The notes under the pieces: generated by a model | Database searches by the model: none | Seen by the model: the letters and a program-made list of their open reading frames with translations, nothing else | What the model was told of the DNA's origin: nothing | Assembly: GCF_029318685.1 (NCBI RefSeq) | Contig: NZ_CP119677.1 | Coordinates: 4,641,001 to 4,705,000, forward strand | Source of the DNA: Ruminiclostridium papyrosolvens DSM 2782 | Lineage (GTDB): Bacteria; Bacillota; Clostridia; Acetivibrionales; DSM-1351 | Length of the DNA: 64,000 nucleotides | Reading direction: 5' to 3' | Shown here: positions 7,196 to 59,508 of the stretch, piece after piece | Numbering within the stretch: position 1 is the stretch's first letter | Layout of the letters: every line of letters starts with the position of its first letter | Program-made: the position numbers and the translations under genes

Positions 7196-7366
7196 TTACG
7201 CTTTGTTTAGCTTTACTGCAAAGAAGAAGGAAACCGCCATTGTAGTCAAAGGTACTATTTCCTTGGCCTCCAGCTTTCCTGTAACAATGCATCCTATCAA
7301 TGCTCCTACCAGAACAAAAGTAACTATTGTTTTTACATCAATCAGCTTTGCTATTTTCTCTTTCAT
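7196..7366 (-). CDS. Small holin-like membrane protein, 56 aa
   Basis: The frame starts with ATG at 7366 after AAAGGAGAACGGCT and overlaps the endolysin stop by an ATGA junction, so translation is probably coupled. The peptide begins MKEKIAKLIDVK. Two hydrophobic stretches follow (IVTFVLVGALIGCIV and VPLTTMAVSFFFAV), separated by a short charged turn, and the end is basic (KLNKA). Size, topology and position directly after an endolysin fit a phage holin that lets the enzyme reach the wall. The family is assigned by context, not by a conserved motif. Confidence 0.7.
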   Translation of the reverse strand: MKEKIAKLIDVKTIVTFVLVGALIGCIVTGKLEAKEIVPLTTMAVSFFFAVKLNKA

Positions 7367-8061
7367 AGCCGTTCTCCTTTCATTCTCTCAACTATATTCA
7401 TTACGAAATCAGGGAAATATTGCTCTGTTTTAAGCCTTTCCAACCATATGTCAGGATTTTTCTGAGTAGCCCCAACAGTTTCCTCTGCCGACTCAAAGTT
7501 ATTGCCAAGGAGCTTTTGACATATTTTCAGCATTTCTTGTGCCTTTCTTTTGGTTTTGGGGCCTGCAATCCCGTCTATAACAAGTCCCGTCACAGCTTGA
7601 AACTCTTTTACTGTCATTTCTTTTTTCACTCCTTTGAAAACGCTGTCCCTTATTGCTTCTTTTTGAGACAAACTTAGCCCATTGTGTTCCAATAGCTGAA
7701 CATGCCATGGTTCATAGCTCATGGGCTTTACAAGTCCGTATTTTTTCAGTTCTTCATTTCCAAGCAACTTAAACCAACTGTCGCAGATGTCCATTGCTAT
7801 ACAAAAGCAATGATTGCTTTTTCCGTATGCAGCCGCAAGGCACTCTCCGTTTTTACTGTATACGGAGCCGTCTTCTCTCTGTCGGCTGCCATAATTATCT
7901 GCCAAGACCTCTTTTGATATTATCTTCTGCTTCTCAACACTCCTGTAGCCGGAGGTACAGAGACAATCCCGTCCCTTTGCAATACACAATATATTCACAG
8001 CGTTTATTAGTTTTGGATATACACAGGTTTCGTCCTGGTACTTAAACTTTACACAAGGCAT
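7363..8061 (-). CDS. Endolysin: M15/VanY-type peptidase with peptidoglycan-binding domain
   Basis: The protein has 232 residues. The N-terminal ~130 residues form an M15-type D,D/L,D-carboxypeptidase or endopeptidase: TSGYRS, then SNHCFCIAMDI (metal-binding His and Asp of the SxHxxGxAxD motif, with Cys in place of the usual Gly) and MSYEPWHVQL (second His). Residues about 148–178 match a PG_binding_1 repeat (TVKEFQAVTGLVIDGIAGPKT). It cleaves peptide stems in peptidoglycan to release tail particles after holin action. There is no signal peptide, as expected for a holin-dependent lysin. It is flanked by xhlA upstream and the small holin downstream. Confidence 0.85.
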   Translation of the reverse strand: MPCVKFKYQDETCVYPKLINAVNILCIAKGRDCLCTSGYRSVEKQKIISKEVLADNYGSRQREDGSVYSKNGECLAAAYGKSNHCFCIAMDICDSWFKLLGNEELKKYGLVKPMSYEPWHVQLLEHNGLSLSQKEAIRDSVFKGVKKEMTVKEFQAVTGLVIDGIAGPKTKRKAQEMLKICQKLLGNNFESAEETVGATQKNPDIWLERLKTEQYFPDFVMNIVERMKGERL

Positions 8062-8072
8062 CTTATCTCATC

Positions 8073-8327
8073 TCACTTTCCCGAAAATTTTAAAGCCCCT
8101 ACTATGGCCCCGATTACTGTTATTGCCGTAGTAAGTGCCTTGATAAGCTCCAGTACAATTGGAGACCATGTTTTGGTTTCTCCTTCGTTCCTCTTTTTGA
8201 TATCTGTTTTTATTTCCGTCAAATCCTCTTTTATTTCCTTAACGTACACTTTTGTCTCGGCGTGGTTTTGCTCCAGCGTTCTGATTCTCTCCTCATTTAT
8301 ACAACGATAGCCACACTCTCCGGTCAT
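8073..8327 (-). CDS. xhlA: XhlA-like hemolysin/holin-associated protein
   Basis: This is an 84-residue protein. The ATG at 8327 follows AAAGGAGGCGTGCCA; a longer frame upstream overlaps a hairpin and is unlikely to be translated. Residues 10–48 form a charged coiled coil (RIRTLEQNHAETKVYVKEI). The C-terminal ~25 residues are one membrane segment (ALTTAITVIGAIVGALKF). This coiled coil plus single C-terminal membrane anchor is the XhlA pattern of PBSX-type lysis modules, where XhlA works with a holin at the membrane. Its place directly before the endolysin supports this. Confidence 0.8.
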   Translation of the reverse strand: MTGECGYRCINEERIRTLEQNHAETKVYVKEIKEDLTEIKTDIKKRNEGETKTWSPIVLELIKALTTAITVIGAIVGALKFSGK

Positions 8328-8356
8328 TGGCACGCCTCCTTTTAACTTTAAAGTAA

Positions 8357-8386
8357 AGAGGACTACCCATTTCTGAGTAGTCCTCT
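8357..8386 (-). terminator. Hairpin between fibre genes and lysis genes
   Basis: AGAGGACTAC at 8357–8366 pairs with GTAGTCCTCT at 8376–8385. Read on the minus strand it is followed only by a mixed TTTACTTT tract, so it is a weak terminator or an attenuating or processing hairpin upstream of xhlA. Confidence 0.5.
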
Positions 8387-8406
8387 TGGTGCATAATATT
8401 ATCCTT

Positions 8407-8709
8407 TTATTCATTTAATGGTGGAGTTTCTGGATGATTTATTTTATACAAATATTGCAACCATAAATGTCCTATCTCTAATGGCTCAAGTGTTTCATTA
8501 ACTGGATTAAATTCCGCAGCAGTATTCATAATTGTGATTAAAGTTGAAGGAAATTCAATCCAATCAATATTTAATGTTTCTGGATTAGAAAACAACAACA
8601 CATTCGGTTCTCTTTTTATATCCTCTCTATTTTCTAAAACCCATTCGGCAGAAATTTCATTTATTGGTGATATTCTATCCCATATTGTAACTATCATATT
8701 AACTTCCAT
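8407..8709 (-). CDS. Hypothetical tail-module protein, 100 aa
   Basis: The start at 8709 has AAGGAGAG eight bases upstream. The protein is acidic, with no membrane segment, and contains several Trp and Pro residues (TIWDRISPINEI, LNIDWIEFPS, HPETPPLNE). It lies directly downstream of the kelch-type fibre gene (18-bp gap) and before the lysis genes, where tail modules often carry a fibre-assembly or XkdX-like protein. I cannot match it to a known family. It may be a fibre chaperone or a fibre tip subunit. Confidence 0.65.
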   Translation of the reverse strand: MEVNMIVTIWDRISPINEISAEWVLENREDIKREPNVLLFSNPETLNIDWIEFPSTLITIMNTAAEFNPVNETLEPLEIGHLWLQYLYKINHPETPPLNE

Positions 8710-8727
8710 TTTTTATACTCTCCTTTA

Positions 8728-10113
8728 TTAATAAAAATAGGCAAATGTATTAGGAGTTATAGATGGATAATTATAACCACCAAACCAATACAATTTATTA
8801 TTGACTAAAGCAATACTACCACACGATTTTTGGGAAGGCGGTATTAAATGAACACTATAACTATTTAATGTAATATCATAATTATAAAGTATTGTTGACA
8901 TTGCATAGCTGTATTTACTTCCTCCTCCTACTAAAATATTGTTGCTATCTTTTATAATAGCTGAAAAATAAATCCATGAATCATTAGAAAACATTGAAGC
9001 AAGTTGTGTCCACGTATTTGTAGTACAATTATAAACATAAGTTTTTGTTGCACCACTGTATACATTTGTTCCAAAGCAATAAATAGAATTATTATTAGGA
9101 TTATATACCATACCAGAGTAAGCAAGAAAAACGGGGGCATGACCTTTAATAGTTACTGTATCTAATGATTTATTATATAACCACACTTCATAAGAATTGT
9201 CGCCACCAATATTATAAAAAGTGTTTTCATCAGACATAACCCATCGACAAGAAGGTCCTTTCATAGTAGGGGTTTTAGCAGTAATATTTGACCATGTTTT
9301 TGCAATTGTATCATATATATAAATAATATCAGTAGTGGAAGTTGGTTGACTATTTGTATACCAATAAATTTTATGATTAAAAACACCCAACACATAAGAA
9401 TGATATACTATAGGTACGGGGGGCGGTGTTTCATCGCTCCAAACATTGGTTGTTGGGTTATACATTTTTGTTTTTAAAGTTTCACTCATAGAAAAAGTAG
9501 CTATGTAATATAACTTTTCGTCGCATACACATGAGCCAATATCTTTCCAAAATGTAGTTGTTTCATAGTCAGCACAATTATACCATTGCCCATGCGGGTT
9601 CCACCATCCTTCCTCTGGAATATCCAACGTCCCGACTTCCAATCCATTTTCAGTTCCAAATGTAAATCCTTTTAATACTTTAGGTGCTGTTACATTTCCG
9701 TATTCACCCCCTTCACCCAATAACTGAAAATTTTCCCCGTCCCGTATGAAAGAATAAATCCCTGCCTTTGGTTTAAAATCTTCGCCACTGGGTTTTTTTA
9801 AGCTTCTCGCTAATTCATCGGATGAAATACTCAAAGTGGCTGGTCCTGTGGCAATAGCATTAAATTTAACGCTGAATTTCGAACCATCTGAAATAGTTTT
9901 TTCGCTATCAATTGTGTATGTATTACCGTTGTTAACTGTGGTACCCAAATGCGGGACATGACTCTGTGTATCCCCCACATGCCCCTCCAACTCCGTCTCA
10001 ACCCTCTTAATCTGTGTATCAATAATATCCATATTCCCGTTGTGATCCTCTATGTTATAGAAGTCCTCCTGGGATGGCTTTTTCAAATTATAGTTAGCCG
10101 TATTTACTGCCAT
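8728..10113 (-). CDS. Tail fibre / receptor-binding protein with kelch-like propeller
   Basis: The protein has 461 residues. The N-terminal ~60 residues (NTANYNLKKPSQEDFYNIED, then a DTQIKRVE helix) are typical of base-plate-attached tail fibres. Residues about 60–165 are a beta-rich shaft. From about 170 to the end a WxxIGSCVCDEKLYYIATF-like unit recurs several times, each with a hydrophobic strand, a Y/F-rich strand and a TNVWS / AKTWSNIT / TNTWTQL turn. This is the kelch-repeat pattern of a beta-propeller, here with about five or six blades. Such a head would set target-cell specificity. It follows xkdU by 2 bp, so it belongs to the baseplate transcript. Confidence 0.8.
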   Translation of the reverse strand: MAVNTANYNLKKPSQEDFYNIEDHNGNMDIIDTQIKRVETELEGHVGDTQSHVPHLGTTVNNGNTYTIDSEKTISDGSKFSVKFNAIATGPATLSISSDELARSLKKPSGEDFKPKAGIYSFIRDGENFQLLGEGGEYGNVTAPKVLKGFTFGTENGLEVGTLDIPEEGWWNPHGQWYNCADYETTTFWKDIGSCVCDEKLYYIATFSMSETLKTKMYNPTTNVWSDETPPPVPIVYHSYVLGVFNHKIYWYTNSQPTSTTDIIYIYDTIAKTWSNITAKTPTMKGPSCRWVMSDENTFYNIGGDNSYEVWLYNKSLDTVTIKGHAPVFLAYSGMVYNPNNNSIYCFGTNVYSGATKTYVYNCTTNTWTQLASMFSNDSWIYFSAIIKDSNNILVGGGSKYSYAMSTILYNYDITLNSYSVHLIPPSQKSCGSIALVNNKLYWFGGYNYPSITPNTFAYFY

Positions 10114-10115
10114 AA

Positions 10116-10667
10116 TTAAAACACCTCGCTTCTTAATTGTTCATGTGTATATTTTCTTAAATGTGCATGTTTATAGCTGCCCAAAGCCGCGTTTTGCTTG
10201 TAAAGCAAGTTCAAATCAATGCAGATGTTCACCGGCACAATTCTCTTTAGCAGTTTTTCCACCTCGGCAAGCATGGACTTGGCCGCCAGCGCCACCCTTA
10301 CAATGAGCTTGTACTCATTGTTCATTAACTCCAGTGAGTAGCCGGACTCACCGCACAGCGTCTCCAACTGCTGTGCAAGTTTCTTGTAAGTGTAAGGCAG
10401 CTTTTCATTAAGTCTGGTCAGAATCCTGAATTTTCTCAATTCAAGGCTATCGGAGCCTTTTGGATTTATATTCAGTATAGCTTCCCAACGTTTTACCCCG
10501 TCTTCCGTGGCATCTTCTATAAACTGCTCCTTCATTACATTGTCAAGCCTGCCCCAAAGGGCAAGAATTTCAGGATTTTCAGCAGCAGCAAGCTCTTGGA
10601 ATTCCCTGAAATCCTGTAAAAACTCCGGCAAATAGTTCAGCATATTGATTTCTCTATCCAATAACAT
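10116..10667 (-). CDS. xkdU: XkdU-like baseplate wedge protein (YmfQ/DUF2313)
   Basis: This protein of about 183 residues includes MLNYLPEFLQDFREFQEL near the start and FRILTRLNEKLPYTYKKLAQQLE in the middle, typical of XkdU/YmfQ wedge proteins that sit beside gpJ and connect to the fibre. The start is uncertain. ATG at 10667 lies within the end of xkdT, close to AGGGGTG, and a frame open to 10697 is possible. The overlap with xkdT suggests translational coupling. The C-terminal part (KLLKRIVPVNICIDLN) is conserved in the family. Confidence 0.85.
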   Translation of the reverse strand: MLLDREINMLNYLPEFLQDFREFQELAAAENPEILALWGRLDNVMKEQFIEDATEDGVKRWEAILNINPKGSDSLELRKFRILTRLNEKLPYTYKKLAQQLETLCGESGYSLELMNNEYKLIVRVALAAKSMLAEVEKLLKRIVPVNICIDLNLLYKQNAALGSYKHAHLRKYTHEQLRSEVF

Positions 10668-11709
10668 CACCCCTGACCGGAACAGCATCTTTGTCAAGCA
10701 TCAGATTCTGCTCTAAACCATTGATTTTCGTTCCCGATATGTCCAGAATGCCCTCAACCTCCAGCAGACGGGTTTCAATCTGGCTTATTCTGACTATGAG
10801 GTTATCACTGTCAGCCCACTCTTTGCTCAGCTCATTGAAATAATTATCAATAACCGAGTATACATAGCCCTTTACATCCTCCCAAGTCCAGCCTTTACGG
10901 TAGGTCAGGTTCAATGTTATGTCAACCCTAGTTTCCGCAACTCCTGTAACCGTAACTATATGCCCGATAGGTGCAAACCCTACCCCATCGCCTTGGCTGT
11001 TCAAAGGATCTATCTTAGTTTGAAGCTTGTCAATCAAGTCACTTGAAGGCTTTTGAAACTGGGAGCTAATAACCACCAGTTTAACAGTACCCCCTCCATT
11101 CCAAGCAGGATAAACCTTAATACCTCCAACCCCTTGAAGCTGATTAACCTTTTCCTTATAGTCGGACATATTGCCCCCAAAAGCTTGTGAATCCAAGGTA
11201 GCAAAATATCTGGCTCTTAGCTGTTCCGTATCCTCCTCATCTTCTCCGGAAATAAGAAGTTCGGTAATTTCCGCTTTTGTCAATCCCTCAATATAGTCCA
11301 CGGGAATCAACAAACCAAAATACCTGTTTCCTTCAGCTCCTGCAGTTTCACACATGAGTTTGAACTCACACTCATTTATTTTTTCAGCAACAACATAATT
11401 AAGATTTCCCAGTGAGAACCTTGAACCCAGCGGAACATTAATATTAAACACACCTTTTAAAATGGCATTGGTAGCTTCAGCAGGTGTTACTCCACGCTCT
11501 GCAGCCCTTTTGATTAAAAAATCCCTTGACGCTGAATCGGCAAAGGTTTCATTCAAAATTACATCTGCTTCAATATACATTTGTGCCAGTTCGGCAGCAG
11601 CCGGAGCCAACGCATCAAAAATAACCGAGCCCTCACGCTTGTCAATTGTGTCGGGGACCCTATCCAACATCCTTTTTAAAAGCACCTCATAGGTTACAAT
11701 TTCGTACAT
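10654..11709 (-). CDS. xkdT: Baseplate J-like protein (XkdT)
   Basis: This is a 351-residue baseplate wedge subunit of the gpJ/gp6 family, which forms the ring around the hub of contractile tails. The N-terminus (YEIVTYEVLLKRMLDRVPDTIDKREGS, seen as RMLDRVPD and KREGSVIFDAL) matches XkdT. The core contains LRARYFATLDSQAFGGN and VGGIKVYPAWNGGGTVKLVV, where GG(N) and the aromatic-GGGTV segment are characteristic. It begins 1 bp after xkdS ends and overlaps xkdU. Length is normal. Confidence 0.92.
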   Translation of the reverse strand: MYEIVTYEVLLKRMLDRVPDTIDKREGSVIFDALAPAAAELAQMYIEADVILNETFADSASRDFLIKRAAERGVTPAEATNAILKGVFNINVPLGSRFSLGNLNYVVAEKINECEFKLMCETAGAEGNRYFGLLIPVDYIEGLTKAEITELLISGEDEEDTEQLRARYFATLDSQAFGGNMSDYKEKVNQLQGVGGIKVYPAWNGGGTVKLVVISSQFQKPSSDLIDKLQTKIDPLNSQGDGVGFAPIGHIVTVTGVAETRVDITLNLTYRKGWTWEDVKGYVYSVIDNYFNELSKEWADSDNLIVRISQIETRLLEVEGILDISGTKINGLEQNLMLDKDAVPVRGDVIG

Positions 11710-12111
11710 TTAAACCATCACCGCCTTTTCAATATCAACATTACCTTCAGTAGTGTATGCAGTAAACTTAACCAAAACCTGACGTTTGTCAGACTCAAAA
11801 GAGAAGTCTCCCAAATCTTTAATCCTGTCATCCTCCTGCAAAGCCTCTCGTATTCTGTTTTCTATTTCTGAATAAACCAATACAGCCGCTTCACCAAAAA
11901 GGTCTGTTAATTCAATCCCATAATCCCAGTCATAAATCAGATATTGGAATTTCTGGGTATTAAGAATTTTATAAATTGCCTGTTTAACCGCCTCAACCCC
12001 GTCAATGAAGCCCCCTATTCTCATTTCCTCAAGATTCATTTTATAGGTATATCCCGGCTGCTGACGGATTTCAAAATCAGGCTGTAAATCATCATTTAAA
12101 GTTGGAATCAT
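11710..12111 (-). CDS. xkdS: Baseplate protein XkdS-like (DUF2634, gp25/W-related)
   Basis: This 133-residue protein contains KQAIYKILNTQKFQYLIYDWDYGIEL, the DUF2634/XkdS hallmark, and a central EIENRIREALQEDDRI helix shared with gp25/gpW lysozyme-like baseplate wedge proteins that join sheath and baseplate. It overlaps xkdR by 4 bp (ATGA) and abuts xkdT. It is soluble, and no catalytic residues are expected in this group. Confidence 0.9.
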   Translation of the reverse strand: MIPTLNDDLQPDFEIRQQPGYTYKMNLEEMRIGGFIDGVEAVKQAIYKILNTQKFQYLIYDWDYGIELTDLFGEAAVLVYSEIENRIREALQEDDRIKDLGDFSFESDKRQVLVKFTAYTTEGNVDIEKAVMV

Positions 12112-12434
12112 TTCTTCACCGCCTTATCAAGAACAAGGTATTTTTGTCCCCCCTGAAACTGAATCATTATTACACTCTCACCCTCTGCTAATCCGTTGTG
12201 AACCGTAAATGTCTTTTTTCCTCCCAGCTCATCTGTCAATTCCATCACGTGCTCCTTTACATTGTTGGTCAATATCAAATGAGCCTCCTTTAAAATCAGC
12301 TTTTGGTCAATACTGATTGCAAGAGGAGCGACACTCAGAACATTTCCGAAAACAACGTTTGTAGGTTTTGAATCATTCACCGCAGCTATTGCCGCCAGCT
12401 TGATAATTTCAACCATATTAGGCAACAAAATCAC
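12108..12434 (-). CDS. xkdR: XkdR-like tail protein (DUF2577)
   Basis: This 108-residue beta-rich protein resembles DUF2577/XkdR, and may be the spike or OB-fold component beneath the hub. Visible features are VVFGNVLSVAPLAISIDQKLILKE at residues about 28–50 and GLAEGESVIMIQFQGGQKYLVLDK at the end, both typical of the family. It overlaps xkdQ upstream (17 bp) and xkdS downstream (4 bp), so the baseplate genes form one coupled set. Confidence 0.88.
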   Translation of the reverse strand: MILLPNMVEIIKLAAIAAVNDSKPTNVVFGNVLSVAPLAISIDQKLILKEAHLILTNNVKEHVMELTDELGGKKTFTVHNGLAEGESVIMIQFQGGQKYLVLDKAVKK

Positions 12435-13374
12435 CGCCCTTCAAAGTGATGTCCATATAATGCTCATTACTCTTAAAGGTATGCTTCACAGTTTCCACAA
12501 GCATGTAATTCTGAACCTTTATATCTCCAAGCTCCAACCAGACGGGAATAAGGCAACCACCTCTGACCCTAATATCTCCTATGGCGTTGGAAACGGAAAG
12601 ATTTCGGGTTTTCTTGTTGTATAGCTTTAGAAGCCCGTCAGCTTTGGCTTTAGCATTGGTATTTTGATTAACTTTCTCGTAATACTGAAGAAGTCCCCAC
12701 GCAGCTATGTTATTACTGTCTATGGCCTCATAGATTTCACGTTTCTTTGTTTTATCATTATCGTAGGCCAATTTTATGAAGTTGTAAGTATTTGAGTCAA
12801 TAGACGAGGTGTAATCAAAATCCTCAGCTGTACTCTTTTCAATCAGCACATCAAGCTTCAAGGAATCAATACTTTTAAGACTAATAGCACCGAAGTCATC
12901 AAACAGAACATACATCTTATTCCTGTTCTGCAATGTAATATCAAGAGCACTCTGAATCATATCCATAAGTGTCTTATTATCCTCCACCCTAGTAGCTATT
13001 ACATAACCCGTATCTTCGATAGCTCCCGTTAACAGTTTAAATTTACCTGCCAGTTCTTTTATTATCTGGCTTGCGGTACGATTTTCAAATACCTGTGTAT
13101 CCTTATTTTTGAGATACCTCAGCTGGTCATATGCAGTAACCTTTATAATCTGGTCGCTGCTGCGCTTTTTAGTGAAAACATAGCCCTTGAAAACATTTTT
13201 ATTGTCTACCATCAGTTGCACTAAGTTACCTTCCTGAAAGCTTATAATTTCATCTTTAACCACTGAAAATTCCAGCTTCCCGGGGACACCTTTTCTGGAA
13301 GTCTCCCATGTAATTTCATCCTCAATGCAAGGCTGATACATTGTAGAACCGTTCTGAATCTTTAATTCAACCAA
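12418..13374 (-). CDS. xkdQ: Baseplate hub protein XkdQ (gpD-like)
   Basis: The protein has 318 residues. The N-terminal PGKLEFSVVKDEIISFQEGNLVQL region and the KVTAYDQLRYLKNKDTQVFENRTASQII segment are diagnostic of XkdQ hub proteins, the trimeric hub at the tail tip that receives the tube. The C-terminal half contains IGDIRVRGGCLIPVWLELGDI and an EHYMDITLKGG end. It overlaps xkdP by 8 bp. The length matches PBSX XkdQ. Confidence 0.92.
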   Translation of the reverse strand: MVELKIQNGSTMYQPCIEDEITWETSRKGVPGKLEFSVVKDEIISFQEGNLVQLMVDNKNVFKGYVFTKKRSSDQIIKVTAYDQLRYLKNKDTQVFENRTASQIIKELAGKFKLLTGAIEDTGYVIATRVEDNKTLMDMIQSALDITLQNRNKMYVLFDDFGAISLKSIDSLKLDVLIEKSTAEDFDYTSSIDSNTYNFIKLAYDNDKTKKREIYEAIDSNNIAAWGLLQYYEKVNQNTNAKAKADGLLKLYNKKTRNLSVSNAIGDIRVRGGCLIPVWLELGDIKVQNYMLVETVKHTFKSNEHYMDITLKGGDFVA

Positions 13375-14014
13375 GCTTAATCACCTGCCCTACTCTGATA
13401 AGGTTAGGATTTTTGATTCCGTTTAGTTTGGCTATCTGAGGATATTTTGAGCCATCGCCCAGATATTTTTTGCATATGCCCCAGAGGGTGTCTCCCTTTT
13501 TGACTTTATAGGATTTAGGTTTGACAGGAGTGGATTTTTTAGTCCCTCCTTTTGGTTTAATACCTTCTACCGGATATTTTATTGCGGTACATTGCCTATA
13601 CTGTTTGAGGGTCATAGCCACGGTATAATCAAGGCCATTTTCAGCAGCCTCTGTTATGCTGTAATCTTCAAGAGAAACCAAAGTATTTGTTATTTTACGT
13701 ACAAATTTATTTTTAAAGGATATCTCTTCTTCAATATATAGCTTAAACGGCTTACAATCCGTTTTTAACCGACTGAAATGGTCCAAATAGTATTTGGGAT
13801 TTACAAAACTCTTATCAGGGTAGTCTGCAAAAGGGTAGTTCACCTGAGGAATTAGTAATTCAAAGGAAAATTCCGTCAAGCCCGGAACCTTTAATATACT
13901 TGCCTCACTTCCGTCAATCAGGTTAACAGTCTTATTCTGATTCTTGATTTTTGTTTCAAACTTTGAAGGGGCAACAGGCATCTGAACCCCTCCCAGCCAT
14001 ATTTTATAAGGCAT
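13367..14014 (-). CDS. xkdP: LysM-domain tail protein XkdP
   Basis: The protein has 215 residues. The N-terminal ~150 residues start PYKIWLGGVQMPVAPSKFE, the XkdP opening that contacts the tube or hub. A Pro/Lys linker follows, then a LysM module at about 168–213 (YKVKKGDTLWGICKKYLG … QIAKLNGIKNPNLIRVGQVI) that binds peptidoglycan-type glycans or fixes the tail tip. The start overlaps the tape-measure stop by 1 bp. It is widespread in PBSX-type tails and diffocin-type particles. Confidence 0.93.
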   Translation of the reverse strand: MPYKIWLGGVQMPVAPSKFETKIKNQNKTVNLIDGSEASILKVPGLTEFSFELLIPQVNYPFADYPDKSFVNPKYYLDHFSRLKTDCKPFKLYIEEEISFKNKFVRKITNTLVSLEDYSITEAAENGLDYTVAMTLKQYRQCTAIKYPVEGIKPKGGTKKSTPVKPKSYKVKKGDTLWGICKKYLGDGSKYPQIAKLNGIKNPNLIRVGQVIKLG

Positions 14015-15987
14015 TAGCTATACACCCCCTCTGCTGCAACCGACATGGTTTCATAAACCTTCTGCTCCATATATGAAACAATCCCATCCAAATCAAGTTT
14101 GCTGTTTACATTGTTATGATTAGTCATGTCCACCTTGATTTCCGCAGTAGTAAATTTATTCACTACCTCCTGTTCGGCTATATCTCTCATGTACTTTAAG
14201 TCCTCTTCGGAAACTTGCATTGAATCCTTCATAGCCCCAGTGTTAGCAGCGGTATTGGCAATATGATTTTTCATATCGCTGTCTGCAACACCGGCGGTCT
14301 TAGTAGCAGCAGAATTTGTTAATGACTTGTATCCCGGTACATTAAATTTTGGATCTGATTTTTCCTTTTTAGCTTTAGCCATTGCAATATCAATGTTTGC
14401 TTGTCTCTTTTGCATATCTGTACCCATCTGGACTTGACGGTTAAATATATCAGCATCATGCTGCTGCTTTATTGAGTCTATTTTCTGCTTGTACTGCTCC
14501 AAATCTGCCTCTCTGGCTGTCTTTTCAGCTTCATTCTGGATTTTCGCCTGTGTTCCGAAGTTAACACGACTAATAGCTTCAATAGATACTCCCGGGAGAT
14601 TATTCAGTAATCCAATAAACTTGTTGATAATATCAACTGCTCCGTTTACCATGTCTTGCAAAATGGTGAGCACACCCACCTTCATATCTCCCATGAAATT
14701 CTGAATGCCAACCCCTGCCGACTTCATCCCCAGCATCATCAAATTCCAGAGATCAATAACCCAGTACACACCAGTAAAAAATGAAATTTTCAGAGCATCC
14801 CACAAAATGAGCATAGCATTAACCACAATCATCCAAGCAACATGAATACCTCCTACAGACTGAATCCAACTATAAATAAGGCCTATTATTACTCCTATTA
14901 CCAATGCAATCCAAAACAATGGAGAAGTGAACAAGGATGCATTTAATCCATCCTGTGCTATTTTCTGCATAGTTGTAGCTATAGTGGAAATACCAAGCCC
15001 TATGGCATAAGCACCCACTGCCGCAGCAATCCCCCAGAAAACAGGTGCAATGGAAGCCCAGTTGTTATAAATCCATGTAGCAGCGTTTGCTATTGCTGCC
15101 ATAACGGGAATAAATGCTTCAAAGAGAATATTTTTAATAGTTGTTCCAATCTGCTGGAAGGTTGCGGGCATAGTGGCAAACCTTGCCTTAATTTGGTCCG
15201 AAGAGCTTAAAACAGAGTTTTTCAAAACCTCTGCCGAAACTCCGTTACCTGAAATGAGCTGCTGTTGAGATTGTCCCGTGTATTTTGAAACTGCCTGCCC
15301 CAGTGCAGGTGCATTTTGGAAAACAGACGCCATGTCCTCTCCCTTTAATTTTCCTGAAACAATTGCATCGGTTATTTTATCAATGCCCTTTGTTGCTTCA
15401 CCCGACTCAGCTCCCGCAAAAGACTTATTCATTAGTTCGGTAAACCCAAGGATTTCATTATTATCTTTAAATTTACCCTTAGCTGAAAGCCCCAGCTTTG
15501 ATACAGTTGCAGCAGTTCTATCATAGCCGCTTCTTGAATTATTGGCAGCAGAATAAACTTGATGCTGTAATTCTCCTGCGCTTTGACCTTTATCAGTCAT
15601 CTGTGAAAGTCTGGCATTTTGATTTGAATATTTATCAACCATAGCCATACCTTCCTTAATCTTAGGTAAAAACCCTTTAACCTTTGCCGCCACGTCAGAA
15701 AAAGTAAGCTTCTTCTTTTGTTCCTCAGTCTTCTCTTTTAAATTTTCAATGGATTTACCAATAGCATCAATTGATTCCTTGACTTGACTTTGAGCTCCGT
15801 AAAATTCCCTTGACATTATTCTTGCCACATTTATAACTTCTCTGAAGCCACTCATATTAAAGGGTTTTTTAAACTGATTCTGAAGTTCCTGCGTTTTATC
15901 AATTATTTCTATCACAGGCTTTACCACCGTACTTAGTGCAGTTGTAGTCCCAGACGTCAATTGTAGTGCATTTGCTACTGTAGCCAT
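14014..15987 (-). CDS. Tail tape-measure protein
   Basis: The protein has 657 residues. Residues 1–130 form helical coiled coil (IEIIDKTQELQNQFKK, SIENLKEKTEEQKKKL). The segment around 165–275 matches the conserved tape-measure domain with GEDMASVFQNAPALGQAVS and MPATFQQIGTTIKN. Residues about 300–420 contain several hydrophobic membrane-like stretches (FWIALVIGVIIGLIYSW), which are common in tape measures that enter the target membrane. The C-terminal part is again helical. It sets tail length; at about 1.5 Å per residue this implies a tube near 100 nm, an estimate only. The RBS GGTGGTGATATAA precedes 15987. A palindromic repeat element separates it from the chaperone gene. Confidence 0.92.
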   Translation of the reverse strand: MATVANALQLTSGTTTALSTVVKPVIEIIDKTQELQNQFKKPFNMSGFREVINVARIMSREFYGAQSQVKESIDAIGKSIENLKEKTEEQKKKLTFSDVAAKVKGFLPKIKEGMAMVDKYSNQNARLSQMTDKGQSAGELQHQVYSAANNSRSGYDRTAATVSKLGLSAKGKFKDNNEILGFTELMNKSFAGAESGEATKGIDKITDAIVSGKLKGEDMASVFQNAPALGQAVSKYTGQSQQQLISGNGVSAEVLKNSVLSSSDQIKARFATMPATFQQIGTTIKNILFEAFIPVMAAIANAATWIYNNWASIAPVFWGIAAAVGAYAIGLGISTIATTMQKIAQDGLNASLFTSPLFWIALVIGVIIGLIYSWIQSVGGIHVAWMIVVNAMLILWDALKISFFTGVYWVIDLWNLMMLGMKSAGVGIQNFMGDMKVGVLTILQDMVNGAVDIINKFIGLLNNLPGVSIEAISRVNFGTQAKIQNEAEKTAREADLEQYKQKIDSIKQQHDADIFNRQVQMGTDMQKRQANIDIAMAKAKKEKSDPKFNVPGYKSLTNSAATKTAGVADSDMKNHIANTAANTGAMKDSMQVSEEDLKYMRDIAEQEVVNKFTTAEIKVDMTNHNNVNSKLDLDGIVSYMEQKVYETMSVAAEGVYS

Positions 15988-16005
15988 TTATATCACCACC
16001 TTTAT

Positions 16006-16325
16006 GAAAAAGGGGTTACCGCAAAATTAAGCTTATCTTCTTTAACCTGTACTAAGGAGTATAAATTGTATCAATGGAAGCTTGGTTAATGATATTTGCA
16101 GTTGTTTCTCGGCGAACACGGATATTTTACCGGAAAACCTTCACGATGAAGGTTTTAGCGACACAATGAATCATGGACGATGAATGTGAGCGACGGTAAA
16201 ATATCCTATGATGAGCCGCTAGAAACTCTTGCAAATATCTTGGAAGCAATCATTGATACAACTTTATACGGGAGTACAGGTGTTAAAATAAAAAGCTTTC
16301 TGTTTTGCCACAACCCCTTTTATTT
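16006..16325 (+). repeat. Long palindromic repeat element, copy 1 (inside tail operon)
   Basis: The outer arms AAAAAGGGGTTACCGC (from 16007) and CCACAACCCCTTTT (to 16320) are inverted. Inside, GTATAAATTGTATCAATGG is mirrored by CATTGATACAACTTTATAC, and GGATATTTTACCG by CGGTAAAATATCC. The tip hairpin 16134–16156 is AAAACCTTCA / TGAAGGTTTT. A 42-nt segment, 16166–16207, is identical in all three long copies. It has no transposase and lies exactly between the chaperone frames and the tape-measure RBS. Orientation is given as that of the conserved segment. Confidence 0.9.
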
Positions 16326-16329
16326 TTAG

Positions 16330-16518
16330 TTACCTCTTTTTTGGCTTGTTTTTGTTGATTTCCTTTTTATCGTTTTCAATCTTAATCTGAATAGCCGCAG
16401 TTATAAAGGCCCTTTCTTCTCTTGGAAGCTTCAAAAACTCACCGGGTGTTATATGAAATTTGTGAAGGCAATAGTATGCAATATTAGCATCACTATCGCC
16501 TTCGTTAATTAGTTTTTT
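16330..16518 (-). CDS. -1 frame extension of the tail assembly chaperone (XkdN-T product)
   Basis: This is a 61-codon frame in the -1 register that overlaps the end of xkdN. It is reached from A AAA AAC (16518–16512), a canonical slippery heptamer whose last codon directly precedes the xkdN TAA stop. After the slip, translation reads LINEGDSDANIAYYC and then HKFHITPGEFLKLP and EERAFITAAIQIKIE to TAA at 16332–16330. The sequence is typical of the downstream (T-type) part of tail chaperone fusions, and it has no start codon or RBS of its own. This mirrors lambda gpG/gpGT and Firmicutes tail modules. The fusion would run from 16937 to 16330. Confidence 0.85.
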   Translation of the reverse strand, partial: KKLINEGDSDANIAYYCLHKFHITPGEFLKLPREERAFITAAIQIKIENDKKEINKNKPKKR

Positions 16519-16937
16519 GCTTCGTCTACCATGTCTTCCATAGTAACGTCAAAACCGTTAATCTCTTGGATTTTAGCCAGATAATCTGCATATTCTCCCG
16601 GCTTTAGCATGGTTTTAAGAAGAATGTCCTCACCCATACAGCCATAGCTGTTCTGCAACTCAGCATTATGTAAATCAGGAAAAACAGTACATCTTGCAGC
16701 CAACTTCCCGAGGTAGGCATTGTAGTCGGTTTCGGGAGTATACTGATTTTTCTTTCCCGGTATCTGCACCTTGCGAGTACATGCCTTTCTGATGGCTTCA
16801 TCCTCTTCCGAAGTAATAGAGCAGATTTCCCACTCCACTGGCGCCCCGTTTTCATCTACAAACCTCTTTGATGCAGCATACTTTACATTCTCATTATCTA
16901 ATACATTCTGCCTTAAAAAAGAACTTAATCCGCTCAT
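16509..16937 (-). CDS. xkdN: Tail assembly chaperone XkdN (G-type product)
   Basis: The 142-residue protein starts SGLSSFLRQNVLDNENVKYAA and includes EWEICSITSEEDEAIRKACTR, both typical of XkdN tail assembly chaperones. The end is MEDMVDEAKN, where the final AAA AAC codons form the slippery site. The short form coats the tape measure during assembly and the shifted form recruits tube protein; this is inferred from known G/GT systems. It follows the tube gene by 22 bp on the same transcript. Confidence 0.9.
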   Translation of the reverse strand: MSGLSSFLRQNVLDNENVKYAASKRFVDENGAPVEWEICSITSEEDEAIRKACTRKVQIPGKKNQYTPETDYNAYLGKLAARCTVFPDLHNAELQNSYGCMGEDILLKTMLKPGEYADYLAKIQEINGFDVTMEDMVDEAKN

Positions 16938-16959
16938 ATTAGTAACACCCTTTCCTTAT

Positions 16960-17436
16960 TTAACATTCCATTCCCGGAAGTATTGAGAATTTTTCGTGAA
17001 TTTCAAAATCTTCAAAAGTAAAGTCCATATCTTCATCCAGAAATTCCGCATCTGCATCGAACTTTGTAAGTATTCCGCCGTCAACATTACAGCCCTTTAA
17101 AATAACAGTCTGCCTTGCTGCACTGGAACTCGAGTCCTCATTTGTTACCTGAATATCAAAATAGATATCCTCTCCCGTATCCTTGTATCTTGCCAGCAAA
17201 TCTCTGAAAATAGAGGTATTGTAATGGAAAGAGGCAGAGCCTGTTCCCTTCCAGCCCGTAGCCTTGTTACCCTTTCCGGTTCTGCCAAGAATAGGTACTT
17301 CACTCTTGGTTTTTTCAACCTTTGCTTCAAGTTTTATAGCCTGCATAAAATTATATCTTTTATCCCCAATAGTAACGTAACACTCTGCTAAAGATGCATT
17401 TAAAACATCCTTTCCATTCATACTCTGCATATTCAT
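16960..17436 (-). CDS. xkdM: Tail tube protein (XkdM)
   Basis: The 158-residue protein matches XkdM/DUF2001 tube proteins: MNGKDVLNASLAECYVTIGDKRYNFMQAIKLEAKVEKTKSEVPILGR, shown by its parts GKRYNFMQ-like and KSEVPILGRTGKGNKA, then GWKGTGSASFHYNTSIFRD and a beta-rich C-terminal half ending in FEDFEIHEKF. It stacks as hexameric rings to form the rigid inner tube inside the sheath. ATG at 17436 follows AAAGGAGCGG. It is directly downstream of the sheath gene, the normal order in contractile tails. Confidence 0.95.
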   Translation of the reverse strand: MNMQSMNGKDVLNASLAECYVTIGDKRYNFMQAIKLEAKVEKTKSEVPILGRTGKGNKATGWKGTGSASFHYNTSIFRDLLARYKDTGEDIYFDIQVTNEDSSSSAARQTVILKGCNVDGGILTKFDADAEFLDEDMDFTFEDFEIHEKFSILPGMEC

Positions 17437-17450
17437 CCGCTCCTTTTTTA

Positions 17451-18752
17451 TTATTGTACAACCGTAGTCATATAAAGCTGTTCCATAGAATTCATAATGG
17501 TAACAGAATCCTGAATTACAATTGCCCTTTTGCTCTCTCCCTTTGCAATAACAACATCTTCAGGCTTAAAGTTTTCTATAGCCCTTATGCTTTGAAGCTC
17601 CTGATGGTGCTTTACAACGTCATTCCAGAAGGAAATTCTTCCGGCTGCGTCATTTGGAACATTGCCGTTGTACTTAGTGTTAAACAAAACAGCAATATCG
17701 TTTGCAATCTGGTCAAGAACCCTGATTGTCTGATTTCTTCCAAAATCGCTGTTCTTGTCATCGGTATAAGCTACAAAGCTGTTGATATCCTCAAGTATAC
17801 GAATATCATCCCCAACCCTGTGAAGTATAAATTTACCTTCTGAAACAGCAGCTTCAAGCTCGCTTTGTCTGAAATCGGCATTCACGGTAAACTCACCGTC
17901 ATACACCTTGTTTGTGTTACTCTTGTTAACAGGACAGCCCGCTGACATACCTGTTACCCAGTAAACTAATTCTGACGGTGCATTTTCTCCTGCAGCCTCG
18001 TTCTGGACATTGATAATACCTTCATAATCTGATGGTGTTCTGTAAAGAACAGTCTGGAATTTAACTCCCGACTCATCCCTCATTCTTTTTGTGAACTCAA
18101 CAAAAATCTCAGTTACCTCCGGAGATGTCTCCAGACATCCAAGAGTGTTGAAGGAATAGGATTCAATTTTGTCCAGAAAACTTTGATAGTCCTCAACAGC
18201 AGCATTTGCGCCGTTGGTTCCTCCAATGAGCTGTATTCCGCTTGTTAATGCAATTTCACCCACAATAAAATCAACAAAATCATTTGGAATTAATTCAGCC
18301 ATGCTTGAAACCGTCTGGGAATCAACTCTCGTTAATCCCAAAAATGTCTGTACATCAAACTTGCCTGCATCGTTGCCATGCTGTGTAATAACAATTTTGA
18401 TATCATTTCCCCTTACTCCGGCATATTTTGCAGTAGCATATTTACATGCGGCCTTTTGCCCTTTATTGAGTTTGTAGAAATATCCTGCTCTTATGTGCCT
18501 GAACAAATCTCTCAGACCCTTTAATTTTTCATCCTTGAATTCATAACCGAAAAGCTTCAGGGAATTCTTCTGAAAGCTATCTGCTTCAACTTTGAAAACC
18601 TCTCCGTCAACGCCCCAGTCAAGAACCAGCGGCATTGCAGCATACCCCCTTTCGCTAAGAGTTGCGGTTGCCCTTGATGTGCTTACAAAATTAATGTAGC
18701 TTCCGGGTAAAACCTTGTTTTGCTTTAAAAAAGTGCCTCCTCCAAGTGCCAT
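17451..18752 (-). CDS. xkdK: Tail sheath protein (XkdK)
   Basis: This is a 433-residue contractile sheath subunit. The start ALGGGTFLKQNKVLPGSYINF is the diagnostic XkdK opening, with the PG(S/T)YINF motif. ATG at 18752 is preceded by GAAAGGTGAATTAC; a frame extending seven codons upstream is less likely. The middle contains SGIQLIGGTNG, and the C-terminal ~120 residues hold the conserved sheath domain with TDDKNSDFGRNQTIRVLDQIAND and IVIQDSVTIMNSMEQLYMTTVVQ. It makes the outer helix that shortens to drive the tube. Its presence shows that the module is a contractile (myovirus-type) tail. Confidence 0.96.
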   Translation of the reverse strand: MALGGGTFLKQNKVLPGSYINFVSTSRATATLSERGYAAMPLVLDWGVDGEVFKVEADSFQKNSLKLFGYEFKDEKLKGLRDLFRHIRAGYFYKLNKGQKAACKYATAKYAGVRGNDIKIVITQHGNDAGKFDVQTFLGLTRVDSQTVSSMAELIPNDFVDFIVGEIALTSGIQLIGGTNGANAAVEDYQSFLDKIESYSFNTLGCLETSPEVTEIFVEFTKRMRDESGVKFQTVLYRTPSDYEGIINVQNEAAGENAPSELVYWVTGMSAGCPVNKSNTNKVYDGEFTVNADFRQSELEAAVSEGKFILHRVGDDIRILEDINSFVAYTDDKNSDFGRNQTIRVLDQIANDIAVLFNTKYNGNVPNDAAGRISFWNDVVKHHQELQSIRAIENFKPEDVVIAKGESKRAIVIQDSVTIMNSMEQLYMTTVVQ

Positions 18753-18782
18753 GTAATTCACCTTTCCTTTCAAAAATTTTGT

Positions 18783-18860
18783 TTATTTAATATCAACCGT
18801 ATCAAAGAATTGAATATATAAAGCTGCTCCTTTGAAAAGGTTGGTATTTCTGAAATTGAT
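18783..18860 (-). CDS. Possible small ORF between the tail-terminator and sheath genes, no standard start codon
   Basis: The frame continues in register after the TAG stop of the upstream gene (18867–18869): two codons (Gln, Ser), then INFRNTNLFKGAALY and IQFFDTVDIK to TAA at 18783. There is no ATG, GTG or TTG. An ATC codon at 18860 lies about nine bases after AAGGAA. The composition looks protein-like (NTNLFKG, YIQFF). It may be a tiny protein with an ATC start, a read-through tail of the preceding gene, or a remnant. Confidence that it is translated is low. Confidence 0.3.
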   Translation of the reverse strand: MNFRNTNLFKGAALYIQFFDTVDIK

Positions 18861-18866
18861 GCTTTG

Positions 18867-19349
18867 CTATTCCTTTTTAAGTCCGCCTTCCACAGCTATA
18901 TTTTCCATAGGCTCCTCTGACTGTGTTTCCTTATAAACATAGAAATTGTAATTTACGTAAAAAAGCAGTACACCCTCAACAACCTCACAACTCATTTTGG
19001 AGCCTCTGAACATGTCAGCTTCCATAAAAACAGACTCCAGTGTGTCGTATAAACGGTCAGCAACCTGACAAATTTCTGTATTTTTGTTTACCTTTGAAGG
19101 ACAATACTTAATAGTGAAACGCTGCTCTCTGTAGTATCTCTTGCCTGTTATCTGTTTCTGACTGAAATTATTAAGAGAAACAAAAAAGCAAGGTGCTGTC
19201 AGCCCCTGCTCTGCCTCTTCTTTGTATACTGCAATAGAATTTCCGAAATCCCGGGTTAACTTAGCTGCAATTGCATCAATCACTTCAATAAGAATAAAAA
19301 TCCCTCCTTTACTGTTTGAATCATAATAAACATTTAAATTCCCCCTCAC
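18867..19349 (-). CDS. Tail terminator-like protein (DUF6838/XkdJ-position)
   Basis: The conserved part starts about IEVIDAIAAKLTRDFGNSIAVYKEEAEQGL and contains PCFFVSLNNFSQKQITGKRYYRE-type strands, matching small phage tail proteins that cap the tube next to the sheath gene. The start is unusual. The open frame reaches a GTG at 19349 without a useful RBS, while a strong GGAGGG lies inside the frame at 19307–19302, followed at six bases by ATT (19295) rather than ATG. True translation may begin at that ATT, giving about 142 residues. It is the first structural gene of the tail operon after the regulator. Confidence 0.75.
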   Translation of the reverse strand: MRGNLNVYYDSNSKGGIFILIEVIDAIAAKLTRDFGNSIAVYKEEAEQGLTAPCFFVSLNNFSQKQITGKRYYREQRFTIKYCPSKVNKNTEICQVADRLYDTLESVFMEADMFRGSKMSCEVVEGVLLFYVNYNFYVYKETQSEEPMENIAVEGGLKKE

Positions 19350-19444
19350 TTTTAAAGAACAAAAAAGGAACCGGAAAAATTTATCCGCTCCCCACTTAAC
19401 TTAAAGTTCCTTTTGAAATATTTTGTTATCTCTTTTTACAAATA

Positions 19445-19900
19445 CTATTTTACATCATATATACTGGTATTGGTTGGTATTGTTTTTAGAAATTTATCAT
19501 GTTTTTTTCTTACGGTCTCCCATGAGTAACTCATACATTCTCCTGTCTGCTCCCAAGTCAATCCGTCTATGTAGCGATAAACCATTATCTGTCTTACGGT
19601 ACTGTCCTCAATACTATCTATAAATTCATAGGCTTTGTTGATTTTTTCCATAAGACTCTGTGTCTTTAACCTTATTCTTACTCCGATTTCATTTCTCTCT
19701 TTAATACATTCCTCAGACATTTCCTCCCGGCCTGTAATTGTAAAGGACTTTGGCAAATATGGGAACTGTGCCATACTTCCTCTTACCTTGTCAGTTACAA
19801 TCGTCTCGTTGTCCCCGTAGCTCAAATCCAGAAGTTTTTCATTTAGCTGCTTTATTTCTTTCTTTAGCTTAATTATCTGACTTAATTCTTCTTTTATCAT
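19445..19900 (-). CDS. Sigma-70 region-4-like / ArpU-RinA-type late regulator
   Basis: The 151-residue protein has an N-terminal coiled coil (LSQIIKLKKEIKQLNEKLL) and a C-terminal helix-turn-helix like sigma region 4 or RinA/ArpU activators: YEFIDSIEDSTVRQIMVYRYIDGLTWEQTGECM, then SWETVRKKHDKFL as the recognition helix. Such proteins switch on late phage operons. The start follows AAAGGAGAGTATT. It is the first gene of the leftward tail transcript and lies opposite the Xre repressor, with operator-like repeats in between. That position makes it the likely activator of tail production. Confidence 0.75.
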   Translation of the reverse strand: MIKEELSQIIKLKKEIKQLNEKLLDLSYGDNETIVTDKVRGSMAQFPYLPKSFTITGREEMSEECIKERNEIGVRIRLKTQSLMEKINKAYEFIDSIEDSTVRQIMVYRYIDGLTWEQTGECMSYSWETVRKKHDKFLKTIPTNTSIYDVK

Positions 19901-36144: not shown

Positions 36145-36428
36145 AAAATCTCCCCACATCTTTAGTTTACATCATAGTTATTATACAATAATATAATGAA
36201 TAATAAAACTTAAATTGCAATCATAATTCGGATTAATTGAATTTATCTAATATTTATCCCATATGCATCATACAATATGTAAAGGATATTTCCGCTTCAA
36301 ATTGATTAAAAATATATATTCCTTTTACATTTATATGAAAATAATGTATTATCTTTTTGAGTAGAGCTTACTCTATATTCAATTCATCAACTAATTTTTA
36401 TTAGCAATACAACAAGGGAGTGTTTTCT

Positions 36429-37832
36429 TTGAATAATAATTCGAACATTTTAGATTCTGAAAAAATCAGACGTGTACATTTTATAGGAATTGGCGGATCA
36501 AGTATGAGCGGTCTTGCCGAAATTCTTTTGGCAAAAGGCTATCAGGTATCAGGCTCCGACATCAAGTCTTCCCATGCAACTCAGAAACTTGAGAGCAAAG
36601 GTGCTGAAATATTTATCGGGCACAGTGCCGAAAACATAAACGCTCCGGACCTAACGGTTTATACTGTTGCTGTTAAAGATGATAATCCTGAAATGATACA
36701 GTCAAAAGAGCTGGGCATACCGGTCATAGACCGCGCCGAGCTTTTAGGACTCCTCATGAAAAAGCATTCCTTTGGAATAGCCGTTGCAGGTACTCACGGA
36801 AAAACTACAACAACCTCAATGATAACAACAATAATGTTGGAGGCAAATACAGACCCTACGGCACATATTGGAGGCGAACTGGATTGTATAGGCGGTAATA
36901 CCCGCATAGGAGGTTCTGAATATTTTATAACCGAAGCATGTGAATATTATGGAAGTTTCCTTAAATTCCATCCTTTTATGGCAGTAGTTCTGAACATCGA
37001 AGTTGACCATGTGGATTATTTCCGTGACTTGGAGCATATTAAGTCTACCTTCGGAGAATTTGTTGCTCTTGTTCCCCGAAACGGGTATATTGTAGCCTGT
37101 GCTGATGATGAAAATACTCTTTCTGTTGTCAGCAAGAGAGACTGTAATATTATAACTTATGGTTTAAAAAACAAGGATGCAATGTGGACTGCAAAAGAAA
37201 TAACATACAACAGCATGGGCTGTGCTTCCTTTGAAGTATATAAAGAGGGTACAAAAATGGGAGATGTCTCTTTGTCTGTTCCTGGCCCTCACAATGTAAG
37301 CAATTCTCTTGCCGCTATTGCAGCAGCACACACTTGCGGTTGCAGTATGGATAACATAGCTTATGGTCTTTCCAGATTCGGTGGAAGCCACAAGAGATTT
37401 GAATTGAAAGGCTTAGTGGACAATATTAAGGTTATTGATGATTATGCTCACCATCCGTCGGAGGTTCAGGCTACCCTAAATGCGGCCAAAAGCAGTGACC
37501 ATAATAAAATATGGTGTGTTTTTCAACCCCACACTTATACAAGAACAAGAGCCTTTTTGGATAAATTTTCAGAATCCTTCGGAGAGGCTGATAATATAGT
37601 AATAACTGATATTTACGCTGCTCGTGAGAAAGACCCCGGAGATATACATTCAAAAATTCTTGCGGACAGGATTCGCGAGAATGGCGGTAATGCAGTTTAT
37701 ATAAGTGACTTTCAGGACATAGCCGAGTATCTGGATAAAAATGCACAATCGGGAGATCTAATTCTCACAATGGGTGCAGGCGATATCGTAAGGTGTGGTG
37801 AGATGTTCCTAAACTTAAGGGCGAACAAGTAA
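36429..37832 (+). CDS. murC: UDP-N-acetylmuramate–L-alanine ligase
   Basis: This is an approximately 467-residue Mur ligase that adds L-Ala to UDP-MurNAc in the cytoplasm. Motifs are RVHFIGIGGSSMSGLAEILL, the ATP loop AGTHGKTTTTSMI, the EACEYYGSFL metal site, IEVDHVDYF, GPHNVSNSLAAIAA, and DDYAHHPSEVQATL and FQPHTYTR in domain 3. The start is most likely TTG at 36429 with AAGGGAG seven bases upstream; GTG at 36420 overlaps that site. It is a single gene, divergent from purR, and a palindromic repeat follows it. Confidence 0.95.
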   Translation: MNNNSNILDSEKIRRVHFIGIGGSSMSGLAEILLAKGYQVSGSDIKSSHATQKLESKGAEIFIGHSAENINAPDLTVYTVAVKDDNPEMIQSKELGIPVIDRAELLGLLMKKHSFGIAVAGTHGKTTTTSMITTIMLEANTDPTAHIGGELDCIGGNTRIGGSEYFITEACEYYGSFLKFHPFMAVVLNIEVDHVDYFRDLEHIKSTFGEFVALVPRNGYIVACADDENTLSVVSKRDCNIITYGLKNKDAMWTAKEITYNSMGCASFEVYKEGTKMGDVSLSVPGPHNVSNSLAAIAAAHTCGCSMDNIAYGLSRFGGSHKRFELKGLVDNIKVIDDYAHHPSEVQATLNAAKSSDHNKIWCVFQPHTYTRTRAFLDKFSESFGEADNIVITDIYAAREKDPGDIHSKILADRIRENGGNAVYISDFQDIAEYLDKNAQSGDLILTMGAGDIVRCGEMFLNLRANK

Positions 37833-37849
37833 TATGACTTAGCAAAACT

Positions 37850-38155
37850 AATTTTTATCTATCTTAACTTGTACTAAGAAGTATAAAATTGTATCAATGG
37901 AAGCTTGGTTAAAGATATTTGCAGATGTTTTTCGGCGAACACGGATATTTTACCGAAACACCTACAGGATGTAGGTGTTAGCGGAACCATGAATCATGGA
38001 CGATGAATGTGAGCGACGGTAAAATATCCTAATGTGAGCCGCTGGAAACTCTTGCAAATATCTTGGAAGCAATCATTGATACAATTTTATACGGGAGTAC
38101 CAGTGTTAAATCAGAAAATTTTTCTGTTTTACGACAGCCCCTTTTATTCTTTTAA
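37850..38155 (+). repeat. Long palindromic repeat element, copy 2 (murC/fabZ convergent gap)
   Basis: It is collinear with copy 1: left GCAAAACTAATT…GTATAAAATTGTATC, inner GGATATTTTACCG, tip hairpin ACACCTACA/TGTAGGTGT (37958–37978), the identical 42-nt segment 37989–38030, CGGTAAAATATCC, CATTGATACAATTTTATAC, and right CGACAGCCCCTTTT. It fills nearly the whole gap between two converging genes. The outermost left arm present in copy 1 is missing or diverged next to the murC stop. Confidence 0.9.
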
Positions 38156-57315: not shown

Positions 57316-57333
57316 TCCATTAAATTAAGTTAA

Positions 57334-59471: not shown

Positions 59472-59508
59472 TTTCTTCTCCATTTCCGGCAGACTTTTCA
59501 CCTCCCGA

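Follow-up and report, generated by a model that had tools for sequence, protein, structure and literature searches.

The question raised by this locus is what the imperfect palindromes of about 0.3 kb are that recur across the window, which is the whole stretch of 64,000 nucleotides analysed here (positions 4,641,001–4,705,000 of the 5.03 Mb Ruminiclostridium genome G000). An earlier reading made from the sequence only had proposed either a mobile element or a structured RNA, and had stated that no named family fits. Both natures were supported together, rather than one or the other, and the second statement turned out to be wrong for the core, which corresponds to the RNA family TwoAYGGAY (RF01731). 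The best explanation is an IS1182-type MITE, that is, a non-autonomous transposon, carrying a Csr-type RNA, and its probability was estimated to be roughly 0.7. It is very likely that the family is a non-autonomous mobile element, and mobility itself is well supported. The mobile reading was adopted because the ends are shared with an IS1182-family IS and because orthologous sites carry a plain terminator instead of the element.

The three near-identical palindromes at about 16.0, 37.9 and 57.3 kb were present as claimed. They are about 0.27–0.31 kb long and their pairwise identity is 90–94% over 202–237 matched nt. Copy 1 spans 16008–16321 on the plus strand, and its outer stem, from AAAAGGGGTT to AACCCCTTTT, is perfect over 10 bp. 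Copy 2 (about 37838–38145, plus strand) has a decayed left end and lies between convergent genes at 36420–37832 (plus) and 38163–38591 (minus). Copy 3 (57332–57601) is on the minus strand with the outer stem AAATGGGCTGT/ACAGCCCATTT, and its convergent neighbours are at 56605–57315 (plus) and 57693–59501 (minus). The short derivative at 46.9 kb was also found (46893–46972); it has no RNA core and was assigned to the minus strand from its arm-motif match. With up to three mismatches, GTATCAATGGAAGCTTGG is found at four places in the window, where 0.1 would be expected. The family extends far beyond the copies seen in the window. The DNA search of G000 gave at least 18 long copies, among them L017, which is truncated, and L018, which lacks the tip, and at least 19 short loci in which the arms are kept and the middle is gone; these are lower bounds from the best 40 of 72 candidates. 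Further copies in relatives were found as well, with element matches in 9 of 60 sampled genomes (own genome included), all belonging to one genus, and the numbers for the relatives are lower bounds from the best 12 per genome. The complete congener G003 gave no element match in the DNA search of this 60-genome sample. The long-copy set described below consists of 61 listed copies from five genomes and includes orthologs, so the copies are not independent. The alignment (A1) contains 60 of them, with the truncated L017 omitted.

The claim that each copy could fold almost end to end as a single hairpin held for copy 1, whose one long hairpin has a folding energy of –124 kcal/mol; none of 100 shuffled sequences was as stable (z –14). 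RNAalifold at first gave a structure without the central stem, and a majority-consensus fold was used in its place. This structure of 75 pairs is 96.8% paired in the 60 copies from five genomes, and 11 of the 75 pairs show double-sided changes. It was better than all of the 500 shuffles on all five measures, so the expected covariation was there. Control structures with slid partners paired at only 35–44% against 96.8%, a comparison favouring the observed structure, which was derived from the same sequences. Seven of the 11 double-sided changes fall in the first tip hairpin, H1 (16134–16156 in copy 1), where they affect seven of the ten pairs. The covariation previously noticed at the tip was thus real, but the conclusion that the fold itself is selected holds less firmly, since complementary arms can equally come from arm-to-arm correction at the DNA level and complementarity alone is no proof of selection at the RNA level.

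In copy 1, the core that corresponds to TwoAYGGAY lies at 16087–16243 on the plus strand and aligns with the full length of the model (1–168). Its score in a permissive scan was 42.8 bits (E 1.3e-5), and the Rfam cut-off is 43. The genome-wide RF01731 search of G000 listed two copies of the family, one above the cut-off with 49.1 bits and the other with 42.3 bits; copy 1 and the remaining long copies were absent from that listing. At E ≤ 0.01, the same model gave zero matches in G002, G005 and G008, all of which carry the element. The likeness to TwoAYGGAY consists of the end-to-end alignment of the core, the long basal stem, the two tip hairpins, one GGA loop and the AG linker, and the conserved stems with covariation that belong to RF01731 were found. 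In contrast to the described family, the Ruminiclostridium copies mostly score below the cut-off or are undetected, the GGA of H1 is mostly gone, and the core is embedded in a palindrome of about 0.3 kb with transposon ends. The second hairpin, H2, lies at 16158–16192 in copy 1 and has a CsrA-type loop, AUGGAC, with GGA at 16175–16177. This GGA is kept in 59 of the 59 copies that have the loop (the loop is deleted in 1 of 60), and the variation of the letters beside it roughly follows the AYGGAY motif. The H1 loop has mostly decayed to CACGATG, as in copy 1, and GGA is found in only 4 of 59 Ruminiclostridium copies, among them copy 2 with CAGGATG; it is present too in some more distant congeners. 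The two AYGGAY-type tip loops of RF01731 are therefore not a property of the Ruminiclostridium family. When 61 cores were folded at minimum energy, a GGA hairpin loop appeared in 49 and two such loops in 2. A second TwoAYGGAY subfamily with different arms was seen in G000 (L087, G000:1438740–1438882, minus strand, 39.8 bits), and it is similar to the G007 copy L158. Matches of the element to plant MIR821, CRISPR-DR32 and ceN109 were rejected, as they are far under their cut-offs. The possibility, considered by eye, that 'GAUGAGCC...GAAAC' is hammerhead-like or resembles group II domain V was dropped because the motif letters differ from copy to copy.

The element is short and geneless, and no transposase is encoded, as had been noted from the start. 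Together with terminal inverted repeats and many copies, these are the properties of a MITE; about half of the Ruminiclostridium copies have imperfect or decayed ends. Such an element would be expected to have ends in common with an autonomous IS of the same genome, and these were found. G000 has three IS copies of about 1.88 kb that are 99.9–100% identical and encode an IS1182-family transposase (391 bits against NF033551, cut-off 270). The IS ends AAAAGGGGCTGTTGCACAAT and AAAAGGGAGTGTCGCAAAAC each agree with the element-end consensus at 17 of 20 letters, a match equalled at 3 of 207,960 scanned positions. A strong hairpin, GGGGCTGTTGCACA...TGTGCAGCAGTCCCC, with T's after it, forms the beginning of the left end of the IS (L263–L265). 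A palindrome, GTAAATAAA/TTTATTTAC, runs across the joined flanks in only one of the three IS copies. IS1272 is a member of the IS1182 family. According to the accessible text of PMC4923244, IS1272/TnSha1 targets hairpins, several of them confirmed terminators, and inserts with blunt partial loss of the hairpin and no target duplication. The scan of the Ruminiclostridium long copies for target duplications was negative (0 of 61), which is expected of an IS1272-like insertion and fits non-transposons too. The element resembles the staphylococcal IS1272/TnSha1 in standing where other genomes have terminator hairpins, in lacking target duplications and in taking both orientations at one site, and its terminal repeats match the IS1182-family IS of its own genome. 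It differs from IS1272/TnSha1 in being non-autonomous and geneless, with an RNA core instead. At L102 and L123, oppositely oriented pairs of elements about 2–3 kb apart were seen, and they could behave as composite transposons.

Occupied and empty orthologous sites were found at 37.9 and 46.9 kb. The element is present at 37.9 kb in G000, G008 and G002, and between the same convergent genes G005 and G006 have an intrinsic terminator instead. The two terminators are related, and the hairpin in G006 has a folding energy of –24.1 kcal/mol. Neither the element nor that terminator is present at this site in G007, where a different strong hairpin lacks a clear T-run, nor in G003, where folding gave no significant hairpin. 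A lone GCGGCTGTTGCAAAGCA in G003 (L267, contig C7) resembles one element end and may be a chance match or a decayed remnant. At the 46.9 kb site, only G000 among the five genomes examined carries the (short) element. G005, G006 and G008 carry the terminator ACCCACCTAGTGTGGGT there (in one of the three, ACCCACCTGGTGTGGGT), and G002 has neither; this insertion is probably later than the species split. The terminator was therefore held in 5 of the 8 unoccupied cases, the other three being G003 and G007 at 37.9 kb and G002 at 46.9 kb. It is missing wherever the element is present at these two sites, at a resolution that does not give the exact cut points. At 57.3 kb, G002, G005 and G006 have short versions, and G008 has only an element end and a separate terminator; the 16.0 kb site of G008 is occupied by a short version. 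At no fewer than six further sites, a short copy in G000 corresponds to a full copy in relatives. Because relatives hold full copies at those sites, the short copies are most simply explained as internal deletions in place.

The long copies are concentrated at gene ends. Convergent context was found for 43 of 61 long copies in five genomes (14 of 18 in G000 alone) against 28 of 235 baseline intergenic regions, and divergent context for 1 of 61 against 50 of 235. Gene context was assigned by a simple ORF rule, and the baseline consists of stretches of four genomes around the locus of the window. The convergent preference was not seen in the elements of genomes outside Ruminiclostridium. The element can span a whole inter-stop gap, as for L018 with the stops 6 and 2 bp away. 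The outer stem varies in sequence among copies (AAAAGGGGTT, AAGGCGCTGT and AAATGGGCTGT are examples) and is paired copy by copy; the mean perfect run is 4.95 against 2.39 when arms are mispaired, a value reached in 0 of 2000 permutations. Of the 60 copies, 18 have a perfect run of 9 bp or longer, and 29 have no perfect outer run with four G-C pairs. Within copy 1, the search for promoters gave nothing above chance (one found, 1.2 expected), and the consensus terminator scan gave none, its loop limit of 3–8 nt excluding a 300-nt hairpin.

These observations suggest the following mechanism. An IS1182-type transposase acting in trans would move the element into terminator stem-loops, as the ends, the sites and the IS1272 precedent indicate. 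Insertion would remove the terminator loop and leave no target duplication, as for IS1272. The GC-rich outer stem with its T-run, intact in about half of the copies, may then terminate transcription of the flanking genes in both directions, a role to which the location and the upkeep of the stem point. With less certainty, read-in transcripts in the sense orientation may carry the GGA-loop hairpins, for which CsrA binding is predicted, and, also less certainly, the dispersed copies could jointly act as a CsrA sink.

Orthologous copies with both flanks matched gave 28 pairs at 13 sites, two pairs with only one matched flank being excluded. The orientation was the same in 14 pairs and opposite in 14, and a flip was found at 8 of the 13 sites; the case at 4,713,5xx of G000 is plain by eye. 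Where the neighbouring genes are in tandem, 11 cores lie in sense and 6 in antisense, which is no significant bias (p 0.33). This evenness argues against a strand-fixed role in cis and leaves a role in trans or no role. The opposite orientations may have arisen when a single old insertion was inverted where it stood, or the same terminator may have been entered more than once; the evidence for the two is about evenly balanced. The arms are inverted repeats, which would suit inversion, and flipped orthologs rank first among the copies of the other genome in 6 of 28 comparisons, against about 2–3 by chance on a rough estimate. However, this excess is small, and the accessible text of PMC4923244 describes the IS1272-carrying TnSha1 as entering one terminator independently in both orientations. 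Over all orthologs, the copies are weakly closer to each other than to the rest, ranking first in 13 of 56 comparisons.

The same RNA core was found in other Clostridia. At E ≤ 0.01, 34 of 100 genomes (own genome included) had RF01731 matches, a single genome having as many as 24, and at E ≤ 0.001 the class sample of 391 genomes gave 36 with matches. The searches of these large samples used stricter filters and missed some element-carrying genomes. Part of the TwoAYGGAY matches, 57 copies from seven genomes outside Ruminiclostridium, was examined. The palindrome that surrounds the common two-hairpin core is a different one in each of the seven genomes, its arms and ends being unrelated to those of the others. 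Two GGA loops appeared in the folds of 54 of the 57 copies, which were chosen with the RNA model. Since GGA counts in model-found copies are circular, sets selected by DNA similarity were used instead. In G072, 30 copies were so selected out of 35 near-full-length matches listed; all 30 have the GGA of loop 1, and 24 have that of loop 2. The element in G093 is about 285 bp long with ends like CTGCRATTCGTAAT, and exact target duplications of 7–11 bp flank 10 of its 18 copies, of which L156 is doubtful as a possible artefact of the end sequence. By the same test, target duplications were found in 0 of 39 copies from the six other genomes outside Ruminiclostridium. The search for an autonomous partner of the G093 element by its end motif gave no evident pair at IS spacing. 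In four G093 copies (L154–L157), an extra palindromic sequence is nested in the right arm at the same position, which suggests that the composite element itself has moved.

TwoAYGGAY was described as a probable RNA that is not cis-regulatory, from the human gut, Gammaproteobacteria and Clostridiales (accessible text of PMC2864571), and as a predicted CsrA-binding sRNA with validation in progress (accessible text of PMC4333381). In the class sample, CsrA (PF02599) was found in 31 of 36 TwoAYGGAY-positive genomes against 94 of 355 negatives (Fisher p 2e-12), the negative group containing G002, G005 and G008, which carry the element by DNA. The five positives without CsrA are G229, G269, G306, G323 and G365, with assemblies 80–98% complete. 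Among 42 class-level genomes of nearly all different families (G058–G099), CsrA was present in 5 of 5 positives against 7 of 37 (p 0.0009), and in 5 of 5 against 3 of 12 when only genomes of 2.5 Mb or more were counted (p 0.009). The association could be explained by ancestry, motility or genome size. G007 and G407 have 2 and 3 csrA matches, respectively, beside multicopy TwoAYGGAY elements. The CsrA SELEX consensus site is given as RUACARGGAUGU in the accessible text of PMC7652899, and the loops ACAAGGATGT (G407) and ACAGGATGT (G054 and G072) agree fully or mostly with its 3′ part. The motif, the upkeep of the loop and the co-occurrence suggest that the core RNA would offer a GGA loop to CsrA. 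In this, the element is like CsrB/RsmZ-type sponge RNAs, which also have GGA in hairpin loops, and some loops of the related elements fit much of the SELEX consensus. It is unlike them in having one or two predicted sites per RNA, in many dispersed copies at gene ends of a clostridial host.

Tentatively, TwoAYGGAY may be a mobile CsrA-sequestering module. Unrelated non-autonomous transposons of Clostridia would each have acquired the core, and in Ruminiclostridium such elements would take the place of terminators, with the result that CsrA-binding hairpins are delivered from dozens of gene ends. The element may instead be a purely selfish MITE whose hairpin and loops serve DNA transposition or are leftovers, with gene ends being places of harmless insertion and CsrA irrelevant; this is possible, yet rather doubtful. 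The target duplications in the G093 relative (one doubtful), the unbiased orientation, the loss of one GGA loop in the genus with two left in only 2 of 61 folds, and the second loop without GGA in 6 of 30 G072 copies would agree with selfishness. On the other hand, the core with its GGA loops was found again in seven other genomes, in elements whose ends are unrelated, although as model-chosen matches, one loop is invariant in the DNA-selected sets (59 of 59 here, 30 of 30 in G072), and there is the association with CsrA. A multicopy family of terminators or sRNA genes, spread by ordinary duplication, kept by selection and not transposable, is improbable. In its favour, the orthologous copies are many, the outer stem is kept up in some copies, the location is at 3′ ends and Ruminiclostridium shows no target duplications. 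The IS1182 ends, the element-for-terminator swaps at unique flanks, the target duplications in G093 and the restriction to one genus, patchy even there, speak against it.

For the preferred reading of an IS1182-type MITE with a Csr-type RNA, each part is of a known kind. In the literature searched, no prior report was found of these parts being combined, or of the combined form recurring in unrelated elements. Bacterial palindromic MITEs such as Correia, RUP and ERIC are short, geneless and intergenic with terminal inverted repeats, and what sets the present family apart from them is its named, conserved RNA core, which is found again in elements whose ends are unrelated. No report linking TwoAYGGAY or CsrA RNAs to MITEs was found in the literature searched, mostly without subscription journals. 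In the accessible text of a publication that has both CsrA and MITEs, these appear as separate subjects. No mention of mobility was found in the accessible parts of the literature on TwoAYGGAY, where it is described as a candidate RNA or as one predicted to bind CsrA. TwoAYGGAY, a candidate RNA since 2010 without proven function, appears to travel in transposon-like repeats with unrelated ends. If CsrA binds, a global post-transcriptional regulator would be tuned by mobile elements outside Gammaproteobacteria, a question that the accessible text of PMC4333381 leaves open. If the CsrA-sequestering reading is true, the copy number of a selfish element would be a dial on that regulator. The replacement of terminators is a testable case of transposons turning into gene-end signals.

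As to the surroundings of copy 1, a contractile-tail phage cluster with endolysin, tape measure, XkdN-like and sheath genes occupies 7363–19900 of the window. Copy 1 lies just upstream of the tape measure gene, and its flanking genes are antisense to its core. At the far end of the window, a T-box leader (RF00230, 103.5 bits) is found at 63251–63455 on the minus strand.
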